From positions 6,032,908 to 6,096,907 of the forward strand of contig AP018180.1 in NCBI GenBank assembly GCA_002368155.1: DNA of 64,000 nt, given 5' to 3'. Both the position numbers and the translations under genes were made by a program. Of this stretch, positions 8,981-59,181 are shown piece by piece. The notes beneath the pieces are model-generated. The model was not told the origin of the DNA. It did not search any database and saw only the letters and a program-made list of their open reading frames with translations. The stretch comes from Nostoc carneum NIES-2107 (GTDB taxonomy: Bacteria; Cyanobacteriota; Cyanobacteriia; Cyanobacteriales; Nostocaceae). Position 1 is the stretch's first letter, and every line of letters starts with the position of its first letter.

Positions 8981-8983
8981 TGG

Positions 8984-9096
8984 ATTGGGGACTGGGGATT
9001 GGGGATTAGGGACTGGGGATTAGGGATTAGGGACTGGCGACTGGGGACAGAGAAAAAATACCAATTACCAATTACCAATTACCCATTACCCAAAAC
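8984..9096. repeat. STRR tract (GGGGATT/GGGGACT and ACCAATT heptamers)
   Basis: Tandem heptamers of GGGGATT, GGGGACT and GGGATTA, then ACCAATT units. It occupies part of the 482-bp gap 8814-9295, which otherwise shows no gene. Confidence 0.8.
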
Positions 9097-9313
9097 CAAT
9101 TCTTTTAAAACTATACGCACTTTGATTTCTCTGAGTTATGATACCAAGCACTACAGAGAAATCACTAACTAAAATCAGGGTAAAAATATTACTTGAATGA
9201 AGGGTGTAAGCCTCTGTAAGTATTATTACGCAAACAGTAAAATTCTCATTTACTAAATAGTTGATGGGCGTGGTTTGCAGTTTAATGCAAAATAATTGGT
9301 AAATTCCCTAGCC

Positions 9314-27981: not shown

Positions 27982-28038
27982 AGAATACATTGATGTGTCG
28001 CAAACATTATGAGATTTGGTCTCATTTTTTAACCCTTA

Positions 28039-28220
28039 CGACTCACAAACTAACTCTTGCGACTCACAAACTAACTCTTGCAACTTGAAAACTAACTCTT
28101 GCGACTAGCAAACTAACTTTTGCGACTAGCAAACTAACTTTTGCAACTCACAAACTAACTTTTGCAACTCGCAAACTAACTTTTCTACTCGTATATCAAC
28201 TTCACAACTCTTATATCAGA
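28039..28220. repeat. Tandem 21-bp repeat array, about 8.5 units
   Basis: Units begin at 28039, 28060, 28081, 28102, 28123, 28144, 28165 and 28186, each 21 bp and reading CGACTCACAAACTAACTCTTG or close variants; the last ones are degenerate. All frames contain stops, so it is not coding. It lies between the convergent GTPase and PhoD-type genes. Its reverse complement is related (15 of 21 positions in the best unit) to the array at 58257-58447. Confidence 0.9.
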
Positions 28221-40265: not shown

Positions 40266-42701
40266 ATGCGTATCTCTTTAAGCTGGCTGCGGGAACTAGT
40301 AGAAATAAAACTTAGCCCGGAAGAATTAGCCGAAACCCTCACAATGGCTGGGTTTGAAGTAGAAGATATTGAAGACCGCCGCACTTGGGCCAATGGCGTT
40401 GTTGTGGGGAGAGTGCTTGAGCGTCAACCCCACCCCAACGCTGATAAATTAAGTGTTTGTCAAGTAGATATTGGCGCAGCTGAGACTTTAAATATTGTCT
40501 GTGGTGCTGCAAATGTCCGGGCAGGTATTTATGTGCCAGTTGCTACTATAGGTACTTATTTACCAAATATCGATTTAAAAATTAAGCCTGCAAAACTGCG
40601 TGGTGTTCCTTCTCAAGGAATGATCTGTTCTTTAAAAGAACTAGGCTTACCCACCGATGTTGATGGTATTCATATTTTTCCCCAAGAAAATCTCTCCTTG
40701 GGTAGCGATGTGCGTCCTTTGCTGGGTTTAGAAGATGTCATTTTAGATGTCACCGCCACAGCCAACCGCGCTGATGCCTTGAGTATGGTAGGTATAGCTA
40801 GGGAAGTTGCGGCTTTAACAGGTGGTAAACTCAGCATTCCGCAACCAGGGGAAGTTTCCATTAGCCAAAGCGGGGGAAATTTAGCTGTCAGTGTTTCCGA
40901 AACTCAAGCTTGTCCCGCTTATATTGGCACAGTTATTGAACAGGTAAAAATAGCGCCTTCTCCTGGGTGGTTGCAACAACGCCTACAGGCTGCTGGCGTG
41001 CGACCAATCAATAATGTTGTGGATATTACCAACTATGTGTTGTTGGAATGGGGACAACCGTTACACGCATTTGACAGAGAACGCCTGAAATCTGTAGCCG
41101 GAAGCGATAATGTGACGATTGGCGTGCGCTTCGCCAGTGCAGGAGAATCCTTCAAAACCTTAGATGGACAAACCCGTACCCTCTCAGCCCAGAACTTATT
41201 AATCACCGCCAACAACAAACCAGTGGCGATCGCAGGGGTTATGGGTGGAGAAGAAACGGAAGTCCATGAAGGTACGCAAAGCCTGGTATTAGAAGCCGCA
41301 TTATTTGATTCCGTAGCTATTCGCCGTTCTTCTCGTGGTGTTGGTTTAAGAAGTGAATCTTCTGGCAGATATGAACGGGGCGTGAACCGCGCTGAATTAG
41401 AAGTAGCCTGTCGTCGTGCTTTGTCGCTGCTAACAGAATTAGCTGATGGCGTAATTACCCAACAAGAAATCGCCGATACTCGCCCCGACCCCTCAACCTG
41501 GACGCGTTCCATTGCGTTGCGCTTAGACAGAGTTAATCAAGTACTAGGGCCAATTGACTTAGGCGAAGAAACAGGAGAACTGGAAGAAAAGGACGTTGAG
41601 CGGATTTTAACTGCACTTGGTTGTGAACTTACCCCTGCAGGCGATCGCTCGTGGAAAGTATCTGTACCACCCTACCGTTACCGCGACTTAGAACGGGAAA
41701 TTGACTTAATTGAAGAAATCGCCCGGCTTTACGGCTATGACAACTTTTGTGATACCTTACCCCACAAAGCAGAAGCTGGTTATTTGCCTTTAGATCAAGA
41801 ACTCATCCGCAAATTACGCGCTTTGTTCCGCGCTGCGGGACTGACAGAATTAATTCAATATTCTCTAGTCAAACCAGGGGAAAACCGACAAATAGTCCTG
41901 TCCAACCCCTTATTTGTGGAATATTCCGCACTGCGAACCGATTTAATCTCTGGCTTGATTGACGCTTTCCAATACAACCTCGAACAAGGAAACGGTTCAC
42001 TGAACGGCTTTGAAATTGGGCGAATTTTCTCACGCGAAGAAGACGGATTACAAGAAAACGAAGCGCTCGCTGGGATTATGGGAGGCGATCGCACTCTCAG
42101 CCAATGGACAAACAGCGGTCGCGAACAACCCATGACTTGGTATGAAGCCAAAGGCATTCTCGACAGCGTATTTGGCCAGCTGGGTTTACAAGTAGAATAT
42201 CAGCCCGATTGCCGCGATCCACGCCTACACCCAGGACGCACAGCTTCTCTCTGGATTAGAGGTAACAGCCTGGGCATTTTTGGTCAACTCCATCCCCAAC
42301 TGCGGCGAGAAAAAGGTTTACCAGATTCCGTCTACGCATTTCAACTAGATACAGATGTGCTGTTGGATGCCCTGGATCAAGATGAAATTCTCACCCCAGT
42401 ATTCAAATCCTATTCCACCTACCCAGCCAGCGATCGCGATATCGCCTTCTTCGCCCCTGTGAAAGTCACAGTCGCCGAAATCGAAAAAGCGATTAACAAA
42501 GCAGGTAAAGAACTACTAGAGTCCGTGGAATTATTCGATGAATATCGCGGTGAAAACGTCCCCACCGGACAGCGTAGTTTAGCCTTCCGCCTAATTTACC
42601 GTGCCAGCGATCGCACCCTCACCGATGCCGAAGTCGAACCAGTACACAACAAAGTGCGTGAAGCTTTGGTAGAGAAATTTGGCGTGAATTTGAGGAGTTA
42701 G
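40266..42701 (+). CDS. pheT: Phenylalanine-tRNA ligase beta subunit
   Basis: Non-catalytic and editing subunit of PheRS, 811 residues, the usual bacterial length. Domains in order: tRNA-binding OB fold ('[24 protein letters not shown]', about 48-70, extending to about 150), B3/B4 editing domain (about 215-390, '[14 protein letters not shown]'), B5 domain (about 405-500), tRNA-synthetase-like core (about 500-700), and the C-terminal ferredoxin-fold anticodon-binding domain ('[13 protein letters not shown]', last 95 residues). pheS is not in the window. It works with PheS in translation. Confidence 0.97.
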
Positions 42702-42780
42702 GGATTGGGGATTGGGGATTGGGGACTGGGGACTGGGGACTGGGGACTGGGGACTGGGGACTGGGAAAAAGCAGGGGAGC
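42702..42780. repeat. STRR: GGGGATT/GGGGACT heptamers
   Basis: Eight or more tandem heptamers immediately after the pheT stop, followed by ACCCATT units. Confidence 0.85.
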
Positions 42781-42867
42781 AGGGAGCAGGGGGGAAACTA
42801 ACAAACACCTATTACCAATTACCCATTACCCATTACCAAATAACAAATAACAAAGGACAAATACCAA

Positions 42868-43137
42868 ATGCCCAAATATGTATTGTGGGGAAGCTACTGC
42901 GAGGATGTTTTAGAAAAACGCGCCCCTTATCGTCAAGCCCATTTAGATGGGTTAGCTAAACAAAAAGAATCTGGTGTGCTGATTACAATCGGCCCTACCA
43001 AAGATGTCACCAAAGTTTTTGGTATTTATGAAGCTGACGACGAAGCCACCGTACGCCAGTTGATTGAAAATGACCCCTACTGGCAAAACGGTATTTGGAC
43101 AGAATACTCAGTCCAAGAGTGGATACAGGCGATTTGA
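42868..43137 (+). CDS. YciI-like protein
   Basis: An 89-residue member of the YciI family (ferredoxin-like dimeric alpha-beta barrel). It has 'YCEDVLEKRAPYRQAHLDGL', with the conserved His-Asp near the possible active site, and 'GPTKDVTKVFGIYEADDEATVRQLIENDPY'-type features (family pattern D-x-P). The enzymatic role of such single-domain YciI proteins is unclear. ATG start. It is bordered by STRR tracts on both sides. Confidence 0.85.
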   Translation: MPKYVLWGSYCEDVLEKRAPYRQAHLDGLAKQKESGVLITIGPTKDVTKVFGIYEADDEATVRQLIENDPYWQNGIWTEYSVQEWIQAI

Positions 43138-43320
43138 TTGGGGATTAGGGATTGGGGATTGGGGACTGGGGATTGGGGACTGGGGATTAGGGATTGGGGA
43201 CTAGGAAAAAGCAGGGGGCAGGGAGCAGGGGGAAAAATAACAAACACCAATTACCGATTACCCATTACCGATTACCCATTACCAAACACCCAATGCCCAA
43301 TGCCCCATGCCCCATGCCCA
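43137..43320. repeat. STRR tracts after the YciI-like gene
   Basis: GGGGATT/GGGGACT heptamers (about 43139-43200), then CCGATTA/CCCATTA units and CCCAATG/CCCCATG units. The rest of the gap to 43480 shows no gene. Confidence 0.8.
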
Positions 43321-43480
43321 ATTTCTAGCTTTTTACAGATGCGATCGCCTGCTTGTATATGGGATGATCGGTATTCACGCCATAACGAATCGTGGTTGTT
43401 GTCTAGAATAAAAATAAAGTCAGTAAATACAACAACTTCGGTTGTGTGAGCATTTTTGGACTTTTTGAGAAAATACCACT

Positions 43481-57620: not shown

Positions 57621-58151
57621 ATGCAGCGGATTTCTATTGTCGGAACCACAGGTTCAGGTAAGACAACTTTAGCGAAGCAAATTTCTCTAAGCCGCAACCT
57701 ACCTCATATAGAATTAGACTATTTGCACTGGGAACCTAACTGGGTAGAAGTACCAACCCAGATAATGCGCGAGAGGGTATCTCAAGCACTATCAGGTAAT
57801 AGCTGGGTAGTAGATGGTAATTACAGTATCGTGCGGGATATTGTTTGGGGAAAAGCTGACACGGTTGTGTGGTTAGATTATTCTTGGTGGGTAGTGATGA
57901 GTCGAATATTACAGCGCACAATGTCGCGGGTCATCACACAACAAGAAGTCTGCAATGGCAACCGCGAAACATGGCAAACTACCTTTAGTCGCGATTCCAT
58001 AATTTTGTGGGCGCTAAAGACTTACGATAAAAAGCGCAGGGAATACCCCCAGCTATTTACTCAACCAGAGTATGCCCATTTGAGAATTGTACATCTGCGA
58101 TCGCCTGGCGATACCGCAAATTGGCTGGACAAGAATTTTGCTGAAAAATGA
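57621..58151 (+). CDS. P-loop kinase-like protein (FlaR/adenylate kinase-type)
   Basis: A 176-residue NTPase with Walker A 'GTTGSGKTT' at residues 8-16 and 'IELDYLHWEPNW', 'WVVDGNYSIVRDIVWGKADTVVWLDYS', the pattern of the so-called topology-modulation (FlaR) proteins, which are nucleoside/nucleotide kinase relatives. Substrate unknown. ATG start at 57621. It is convergent with the methyltransferase at 58525, with a tandem repeat array between. Confidence 0.85.
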   Translation: MQRISIVGTTGSGKTTLAKQISLSRNLPHIELDYLHWEPNWVEVPTQIMRERVSQALSGNSWVVDGNYSIVRDIVWGKADTVVWLDYSWWVVMSRILQRTMSRVITQQEVCNGNRETWQTTFSRDSIILWALKTYDKKRREYPQLFTQPEYAHLRIVHLRSPGDTANWLDKNFAEK

Positions 58152-58256
58152 AAACAGAAGCTAGAATAAGCTTTATCCACGGATGGATAAGCAACAGCTT
58201 TTATGAATGAGGATTTATTGATATTTGGGCAAATTAGCTAGTTTATCGATTGTGAA

Positions 58257-58447
58257 CCTGATGCACGATTTGTAAACTTGATGCACGAGTTCGTGCACTT
58301 GATTCACAAGTTATAAACTTGATGCACGAGTTCGTGAACTTGATTCACGAGTTCGTGAACTTGATTCACAAGTCGTAAACTTGATGCACGAGTTCGTGAA
58401 CTTGATTCCCAAGTTGTAAACTTGATTCACGAGTTGTAAACTTGATA
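58257..58447. repeat. Tandem 20/21-bp repeat array, about 9.5 units
   Basis: Units begin at 58257, 58277, 58298, 58318, 58339, 58360, 58380, 58401 and 58421, alternating 21 bp (CTTGATGCACGAGTTCGTGAA) and 20 bp (CTTGATTCACGAGTTGTAAA). The inner CACGAGTTCGTG is palindromic. It lies between convergent genes and is related to the reverse complement of the array at 28039-28220. Confidence 0.92.
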
Positions 58448-58524
58448 ATTTAATTTCACCATAACGTCAGGGCGATCGCATATTGGTATTCCCTGGAAGC
58501 CGAGAAATTTCTTAGCTGTGGTTC

Positions 58525-59181
58525 CTATTTTGTGGCTACGCCCATAATATGAGGACTGACAATCGGGAATGGGGCCTCGAAATGCTCATAATTTAACTTA
58601 GAAAATCCTGCTTGTTCTAAAGCCACCCAAGTTTCCCTGTCTGGATGACAACCATCACCCAAAAATTGCCAAATTGGACGAACGGTACTTTGCACCCGTC
58701 GTAAAAAAGTACCGCTGGGTGCGGCGATATGTTCAATAAATAAGAAGCGTCCACCTGGTTTGAGAACCCTTAATATTTCTCGAAATGTAGCGGCTAGATT
58801 TGGGACTGAACACAGAACTAAGGTACTCACTACAGTATCTATGCTGTTATCTGATGCATCTATGCTTTCAGCTGTACCTGTACGGATATCAATATCTAAA
58901 CCTAATTGTTCTGCTGCTTCTCGCAGATAAGAATGCATAAACGGGTTTGGCTCCACTCCAATCCAGTTAATATCTTGCGGGTAGTAGGATAGGTTGGGGC
59001 CTGTTCCCGGGCCTATTTCTAAAATATTACCGTAGAGATTGGTAAACAGGGAAGTTTTGCGATCGCTTACGGCTTTCTCATATTCAGTGCTACCTTGAGC
59101 CATCATCCAAGCAAACAGGCGTTTACCACAATTACTGCAAATATGATTTGCTGATTGTCCACAAGTTTGCTTCTCAGTCAT
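58525..59181 (-). CDS. Class I SAM-dependent methyltransferase
   Basis: A 218-residue methyltransferase of the UbiE-like type. Motif I 'ILEIGPGTGPNLSYYP', 'IGVEPNPFMHSYL', 'TVVSTLVLCSVPNLAATF' and 'RVLKPGGRFLFIEHIAAP' are all present. The N terminus has an extra CxxC ('HICSNCGKRL'), possibly a metal-binding knuckle. The methyl acceptor is not decidable. ATG start at 59181. Confidence 0.85.
   Translation of the reverse strand: MTEKQTCGQSANHICSNCGKRLFAWMMAQGSTEYEKAVSDRKTSLFTNLYGNILEIGPGTGPNLSYYPQDINWIGVEPNPFMHSYLREAAEQLGLDIDIRTGTAESIDASDNSIDTVVSTLVLCSVPNLAATFREILRVLKPGGRFLFIEHIAAPSGTFLRRVQSTVRPIWQFLGDGCHPDRETWVALEQAGFSKLNYEHFEAPFPIVSPHIMGVATK

Follow-up and report, generated by a model that had tools for sequence, protein, structure and literature searches.

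What is a tandem array of 20- and 21-bp units doing between two convergent genes of Nostoc carneum NIES-2107, and with what else in the genome does it belong? The array lies in the stretch of DNA analyzed here, a 64,000-nt window of contig AP018180.1 (positions 6,032,908 to 6,096,907 of the forward strand), in the following setting:

57621..58151, + strand: flanking gene for a 176-aa P-loop (kinase-like) protein, not array-specific
58233..58255, + strand: border ("leader") element ATTAGCTAGTTTATCGATTGTGA, with 3 mismatches to the pattern ATTAGCAGGTTTATCNNTCGTGA
58255..58438, + strand: tandem array of nine 20/21-bp units (direct reading, TRF)
58439..58446, + strand: partial tenth unit AACTTGAT at the distal array edge (direct reading)
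58525..59181, - strand: flanking gene for a 218-aa class I SAM methyltransferase, not array-specific

The P-loop and methyltransferase genes converge on the array, in which units of 20, 21, 20, 21, 21, 20, 21, 20, and 20 bp (58255-58438) stand head-to-tail with spacers absent. The first-pass annotation had described nine or more units, alternating between 21 and 20 bp, with a palindromic center. Nine complete units and a partial tenth were indeed recovered (58255-58446), and the center was found as CACGAGTTCGTG, palindromic about an AGTT loop; the alternation is real but not strict, with one 21-21 and one 20-20 succession. The consensus is AACTTGATKCACRAGTT(C)GTR, that is, AACTTGATKCACRAGTT followed by a 3- to 4-bp tail. 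TRF called the array at 58250/58252-58446 with a period of 41, 62, or 103 and a score of up to 311, and a two-unit pattern matched four times in the array compared with none in 100 shuffled windows. Across 16 core positions in the 27 units of this genome's three arrays of the same sequence type ("window-type" arrays), positions 5 (T), 6 (G), 14 (A), and 16 (T) were invariant, position 9 was T in 14 units and G in 13, and position 13 was G in 21 units and A in 6.

Identical repeats with unique spacers, as in a CRISPR, were not found in the array. A coding repeat was rejected because the mixture of 20- and 21-bp units disrupts the frame; open frames through arrays of strictly 21-bp units are to be expected from the period. 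A promoter in the border element was rejected as well, since the two sigma-70-like pairs between 58100 and 58560 were near the shuffled mean of 1.3. The same interval held no terminator-like site (shuffles, 0.4), and an Rfam search of positions 57900 to 58700 returned two matches (E values of 5.7 and 7.3), far under the gathering score and none relevant. Heptanucleotide tandem repeats (7-bp period) are abundant in the window, for example at 8982-9101 and 42701-43322, and are distinct from the 20/21-bp arrays.

The window holds one other array of this kind:

28030..28184, - strand: first window array, units TAACTYTTGCGACTCGCAAAC, a gene-less copy; the same type lies upstream of the paralogous gene G000:C1:1538163

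The relationship proposed between the two arrays held on direct comparison: the reverse-complemented first array matches the window array at 15 of 21 positions, five of the six differences are transitions, and both arrays lie between convergent genes. The suggestion of a repeat family was likewise borne out, with many members that include three window-type arrays and five first-type loci in this genome. The other window-type arrays, at C1:5715356 and C1:1937251, each have 89% identity to the one described here (search of the 9.36-Mb, four-contig genome), and the first type occurs at four further loci. In the recommended scan of related genomes, both types were matched in all eight genomes of the genus (E ≤ 0.001). 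The window-type match in one of them (G001) was loose (68%) and that in another (G006) comprised only two units; G001 also has a better window-type array, adjoining a border element. The exact two-unit pattern occurred in nine stretches of an 84,980-species collection, all from Nostoc linckia FACHB-104, Calothrix membranacea FACHB-236, Calothrix brevissima NIES-22, and Tolypothrix sp. FACHB-123, and matched no viral contig. Comparison of unit number, also proposed at first pass, gave mostly about 7 to 11 units for the two window types, although some arrays have 2, 4, or 6 units, so that the number is not fixed.

The AT-rich border element (roughly AAATTTGTNNNATTAGCAGGTTTATCNNTYGTGA) is found on one side of the array only and is common to both sequence types; some border elements adjoin arrays of just 2 units. 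A search with ATTAGCAGGTTTATCNNTCGTGA, allowing up to three mismatches, gave five matches in this genome, four at array borders and one in repeat-free sequence, compared with none for the reversed control. A border pattern ending in TYGTGA (up to two mismatches) was found in 17 of 145 genomes of the family, seven from the genus and ten others, compared with three of 145 for its reversed control; among the ten genomes outside the genus, an array was seen only in G080. A stretch similar to the border element (5 mismatches to a longer pattern) also edges a gene-linked array in G005. Two further observations concern neighboring sequence. In G001, a 21-bp array with units like AACCTGATTAATGAGTCTTTG (L017, G001:C1:7037492-7037649), loosely similar to the window array, lies between two divergent open reading frames (ORFs). 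At L028, L074, L076, L078, and L086, the first-type array directly follows the downstream end of an ORF that finishes with SWSFGAELCRSASRSWDESDGGLRSCGFR or a close variant and that we take to resemble a formylglycine-generating-enzyme-like protein.

The window array itself is gene-less, a copy of the type found upstream of a small gene at G000:C1:1937648-1938019. This home gene encodes a protein of ~123 aa, and its array is about 230 bp upstream. Examination of the flanks of 39 distinct arrays, belonging to the two window types and to types resembling them, showed ~122-aa proteins at one locus of each window type, with RNSxALTKAERRIEG near the protein start and the array roughly 180 to 270 bp upstream of the gene start. 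The window-type and first-type gene-linked copies are thus upstream of paralogous genes, with 63% protein identity. A protein search recovered 16 such genes in this genome (17 match rows, two of which are adjacent pieces of one gene), all on C1 and with products of ~110 to 145 aa; another of the 16 has an in-frame stop. Two near-identical paralogs (L101 and L112) are both interrupted; one keeps its upstream array, which recurs as another copy 3.7 kb away from the second paralog. A phage-integrase-like gene lies near the window-type home locus (L010:2505-3923), and an ORF with a very similar C terminus lies beside an array in Tolypothrix sp. FACHB-123 (L070). The ORFs neighboring 15 home loci differ between loci by eye and give no functional hint.

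The protein family resembles no named family closely. Nineteen members align with almost no gaps over ~105 residues, and M1, R17, I24, L82, G90, S93, Y96, and A99-G100-G101 are invariant. Pfam matched HBM in 3 of the 19 members (best E value, 6e-5) and four other families in one member each; PADLOC matched seven families in one or two members each (best, 1.3e-4), and these matches were scattered and weak. The first family member had no Pfam or PADLOC match at those thresholds, the best E value for a single member searched against NCBIfam and PHROGs was no lower than 0.07, and that for the family profile against the PDB was no lower than 0.096. No recognized DNA-binding fold was found in these family-library and PDB profile searches. 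A single-sequence AlphaFold model of weak quality (mean pLDDT, 74; pTM, 0.36) predicts a helix at residues 2 to 24, a long helix at residues 36 to 95, and a basic, low-confidence tail. The family is present in 23 of 60 genomes of the window's taxonomic family (E ≤ 1e-8) and, class-wide, in 65 of 291 genomes (E ≤ 1e-6), across seven families. Its copy number is patchy between genomes; class-wide copy numbers are lower bounds, the best 14 candidates per genome having been scored.

Arrays upstream of these genes are the rule well beyond the two types in the window. Of the 16 genes in this genome, 12 have a 20- to 21-bp array within 650 bp upstream, and a thirteenth (L104) has one at -800 to -574. 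The upstream arrays of these paralogs are mostly of quite different sequence. Including other cyanobacteria, an array was present between -650 and -50 of the start codon at 69 of 82 gene loci, which are the best matches of each search rather than a random sample (a duplicate, L193, was excluded). In the downstream windows, an array was present at 1 of 82 loci (Kovacikia), and among random ORFs of this genome, at 4 of 273, one of the four being beside the L104 array (Fisher's exact test, P = 3e-31 for upstream versus downstream and P = 6e-15 for this genome's genes [12/16] versus random ORFs). Arrays were present at all 8 extra loci of the genus, at 26 of 28 loci from additional genomes of the window's family (the same genus accounting for 4 of these 28), and at 23 of 30 class-wide loci, comprising 20 of 25 from other families, 2 of 4 from the window's own family, and one on Kovacikia minuta plasmid pA. 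The association between gene and array is strong. The 13 loci without an array in the tested range count against a reading in which the protein binds the array. Three of these are L195, with only 249 bp of upstream DNA; L104, with the more distant array noted above; and L154, whose array lies at -1057 to -820 with a second paralog between array and gene.

Period and position are narrowly distributed. The scan accepted 19.5 to 21.6 bp per unit and up to four units per period, and arrays mostly covered by a period of ≤15 bp were excluded from the counts. Among the 69 arrays, the unit period was 21.0 bp in 51, 20.5 in 8, 20.0 in 5, 20.75 in 3, and 20.67 and 21.33 in 1 each, and no other period above 15 bp was found in the scanned upstream, downstream, and random-ORF windows. 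The distance from array end to start codon had a median of 197 bp (interquartile range, 177 to 237; range, 117 to 359). Since periods of 20, 20.5, 20.67, and 20.75 bp occur, multiples of three are not required, and the linked arrays are therefore not coding. Two helical turns of DNA would explain a period of ~20 to 21 bp; because arrays of 20.0 and 21.0 bp both exist, helical phase would be inexact over a whole array.

Arrays of this period were also counted in random samples. Five were found in 400 kb of this genome, while samples of 200 kb gave 6 and 3 in two genomes that bear the family (G012 and G039) and 0 and 1 in two genomes without a family match (G026 and G037). Outside ORFs of ≥200 aa, the counts were 5, 4, 1, 0, and 0, respectively, which are small numbers. 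Further 20- to 21-bp arrays in random stretches of this genome, at L131:11535-11879, L122:83-260, and L127:8210-8325, may be satellites of unsearched family members.

Array sequence co-varies with the protein. Among 36 of 39 linked arrays (630 pairs; L101, L140, and L149 excluded), array similarity and protein identity were correlated (Mantel r = 0.70; none of 2,000 permutations reached this value). Similar arrays (score above 60) were absent from all 510 pairs below 60% protein identity but occurred in 24% of pairs at 60 to 70% identity, 66% at 70 to 80%, and 12 of 12 above 80%. Array sequence thus follows the protein subfamily, while period and position are kept across cyanobacteria. In between-genus comparisons at ≥60% identity (32 loci), median conservation was 0.36 for the array, 0.50 for the gap between array and gene, and 0.10, equal to background, for the DNA beyond the array. 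Conservation therefore takes in array, gap, and gene as one unit, with the array outermost. This co-variation is weaker as evidence of binding because common descent of the whole unit would also produce a correlation, and conservation of the gap at least as well as the array indicates that shared locus descent explains part of it. Two genomes depart from the pairing: G080 has a window-type array and no relative of the home protein at E ≤ 1e-30, and in G001 the single close relative of the home protein has a different upstream array, while a similar window-type array is present in the genome. These departures count against the binding reading, as do the variable unit number and the failure of the searches to show a recognized DNA-binding fold.

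Gene-less copies are equally general in this genome. Each of 13 linked arrays has 1 to 5 of them, at least 35 in all. Eleven linked arrays other than the two window types, used as queries, matched at least 29 further places (E ≤ 0.001; best 40 of 64 candidates), and six more gene-less arrays belong to the two window types. Gene-less and linked arrays share 74 to 98% identity, in most cases over most of the length and in some only partially (for example, 100 of 227 bp at C1:1429037); in several array families, some flank is also common to the gene-less copies. Six of the 35 are on the 0.55-Mb replicon C2 (binomial P = 0.016), and two have a near-identical second paralog nearby, at a distance of 3.7 kb (L112) and 5.4 kb (L103). 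The flanking ORFs were convergent at 13 gene-less arrays, co-directional at 19, and divergent at 3, compared with 15, 58, and 31, respectively, of 104 control gaps of ≥300 bp (P = 0.007 and 0.012), where orientations refer to mechanical ORFs of ≥80 aa rather than annotated genes, such an ORF also being present within 23 of the 35 arrays. The rarity of gene-less arrays in divergent promoter gaps (3 of 35 versus 31 of 104) makes them look unlike ordinary operators. The convergent setting emphasized at first pass therefore describes both window arrays and a tendency among gene-less arrays, although with 13 of 35 it is no rule. Convergent termination was rejected as a general function for the same reason and because the linked arrays are upstream of genes.

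We suggest that the small proteins recognize their own arrays as DNA, the linked array serving autoregulation and the gene-less arrays acting as further sites in trans, and we consider this reading, drawn from sequence comparison, slightly more probable than all others together. A period of ~21 bp that is not always a multiple of three is what is expected for proteins side by side on one face of DNA. Each protein would bind its own array as double-stranded DNA, with one protomer or dimer per ~21-bp unit, and units two helical turns apart would place the bound proteins on the same face of the helix. Through the long protein helix, neighbors might then be joined in a filament or cluster. At the linked array, the protein would regulate its own gene, and the gene-less copies would offer additional places for assembly in trans; each protein could in this way mark or gather its few sites, possibly as plasmid centromere-binding or StbA-type proteins gather theirs. 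Our confidence in such a mechanism is moderate, and a role in tethering, positioning, or segregation, suggested by analogy, is its least certain part. A bolder version, in which up to about a dozen small coiled proteins form an orthogonal address system, each gathering its private array and a few satellites, some of them on a large plasmid, into protein-specific foci for positioning or co-segregating the plasmid and the chromosome copies, is speculative and rather doubtful; the window array would then be one satellite address.

Alternatively, array and gene together could be a selfish or mobile repeat, in effect a parasite, with the gene-less copies as protein-aided, non-autonomous offspring resembling MITE or REP elements. 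The 74 to 98% identity of copies to linked arrays, the flank shared in several families, the patchy copy number per genome, and the placement of copies in tolerated positions, with convergent gaps over-represented, would all fit, yet we regard this account as unlikely. No transposase-like domain was found in the protein (Pfam, PADLOC, and other family libraries), no phage matches were obtained and none were confirmed in viral contigs, and plasmid matches were confined to two replicons above 1 Mb, Kovacikia minuta pA and, more weakly, a 1.0-Mb plasmid of Nostoc. Moreover, the copies are old. The window locus is common to four of the eight genomes of the genus. Among 14 window-type arrays, similarity was 0.76 at the same locus, 0.65 within the same genome, and 0.68 when both differed. 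Similarity thus tracked the locus more closely than the genome, giving no clear sign of recent gene conversion, and concerted evolution within genomes was not supported. No terminal inverted repeats or target duplications were noticed by eye in the flanks, and no clean empty site was found in which to look for target duplications; the G005 locus has no array and a different neighbor gene and is therefore not a clean empty site.

An RNA system, in which the array transcript binds or neutralizes the protein as in type III toxin-antitoxin loci or sponges and gene-less arrays supply extra sponge RNAs, appears quite improbable. The layout is suggestive: according to one report, the type III loci ToxIN, CptIN, and TenpIN have a tandem array upstream of a small gene (PMC5086642), as is the case here. 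Paired, covariation-like changes between unit types (TTTGC/GCAAA, TTTAC/GTAAA, and TTCACG/CGTGAA) had first pointed to a structured RNA. Folding was better for several arrays than for their column-shuffled controls, and the window array, folded as single-stranded DNA, had a z score of -4.0 against dinucleotide shuffles, which lose the repetition. However, when the 39 linked arrays were folded on both strands against column-shuffled controls, the mean z scores were -1.46 and -1.42, and the array-to-gene strand had the lower minimum free energy in 20 of 39 (pseudoknots being outside the folding model). This absence of a preferred strand gives no sign of a structured transcript and is an apparent difference from type III systems; together with the lack of a relevant Rfam match for the window array, it argues against a structured RNA. 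The hairpin check proposed at first pass showed a mild palindromic tendency, hairpin potential on both strands of some arrays, which a DNA-only model does not need, and z scores near 0 in many. At the single home locus scanned (L097:1050-1510), no Rho-independent terminator-like site was found between array and gene (shuffles mean, 0.2), nor any sigma-70-like pair. The 19 members gave no match to a ToxN-, TenpN-, or CptN-type endoribonuclease (Pfam, PADLOC) or to any other toxin family, and a strict ~21-bp period is not expected for RNA.

Least probable among the readings weighed is a cis element only, an upstream control region or bent-DNA enhancer whose gene-less copies are functionless duplication leftovers, which fits the constant position about 200 bp upstream and the conservation of the gap along with the array but not the presence of gene-less copies for all 13 linked arrays, the retention of those of the two window types at orthologous places in several genomes of the genus, or the different sequence per paralog, which a bend does not need.

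The proposed recognition of the arrays by their own proteins has parallels among known systems, and the anatomy is like that of a centromere-binding protein and its repeats, although membership in the StbA, ParR/parC, iteron, or type III systems is not supported by the features tested. Plasmid iterons, which span about two helical turns per repeat, adjoin an AT-rich stretch and precede the gene for a Rep initiator. The arrays described here share a period of about two turns, an adjacent AT-rich stretch, and a position upstream of the putative binder's gene, but the protein has ~120 aa, is predicted to be mostly one long helix, and has no Rep domain match (Pfam and other family libraries), and the arrays are scattered over one chromosome. 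Tandem repeats in the intergenic DNA of filamentous cyanobacteria are known as STRR (heptamers) and LTRR. Location and host are shared with these; arrays with a period of ≤15 bp are, however, outside our counts, and periods of 20 to 20.75 bp also occur here.

StbA of plasmid R388 is, according to one study, a small protein that binds direct-repeat clusters before its own operon, acts in trans, and stabilizes the plasmid, with stbB and stbC dispensable for stability; its stbDRs, of 9 bp each, form two sets of five repeats on a single plasmid (PMC3098194). The small gene here is likewise preceded by direct repeats (69 of 82 loci), but the units are 20 to 21 bp, the genes are chromosomal, up to 16 paralogs have different arrays, and gene-less satellites exist. 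No StbA/TraK match was obtained with the models that Pfam (19 members) and NCBIfam (one member) contain. About 10 ParMRC families in Clostridium perfringens have ParR proteins that each bind only their own parC, as stated in another report (PMC9426499). Protein families each with their own site are common to both cases; there, however, they are on different plasmids and accompanied by a ParM gene, whereas here they share one chromosome and the home-locus neighbors look unrelated by eye. No ribbon-helix-helix ParR match was found (Pfam, 19 members), and in contrast to the ParR fold, the model has two helices and no strand (low confidence). Searches of the open-licence literature gave nothing that looked like a description of such cyanobacterial repeats or of the gene-array pairing.

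The 13 array types, each paired with its own member of the protein family, suggest a set of previously unrecognized protein-and-site pairs, and the window array is likely a satellite site of a multi-member protein-array system that we could not match to any described kind. The proposal of a repeat family with a common function is supported, and beyond it, every array sequence is paired with a single member of the small-protein family. The result is a set of repeat arrays that differ by subfamily, have a fixed period and position, and are tied to a protein family unmatched to named ones. Such pairing would explain part of the intergenic "minisatellite" DNA in these genomes and predicts which gene to seek for each array. 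If the proteins do bind their arrays, they would supply orthogonal protein-operator pairs ready for use and a testable way into the marking and segregation of DNA in polyploid, many-replicon cyanobacteria.
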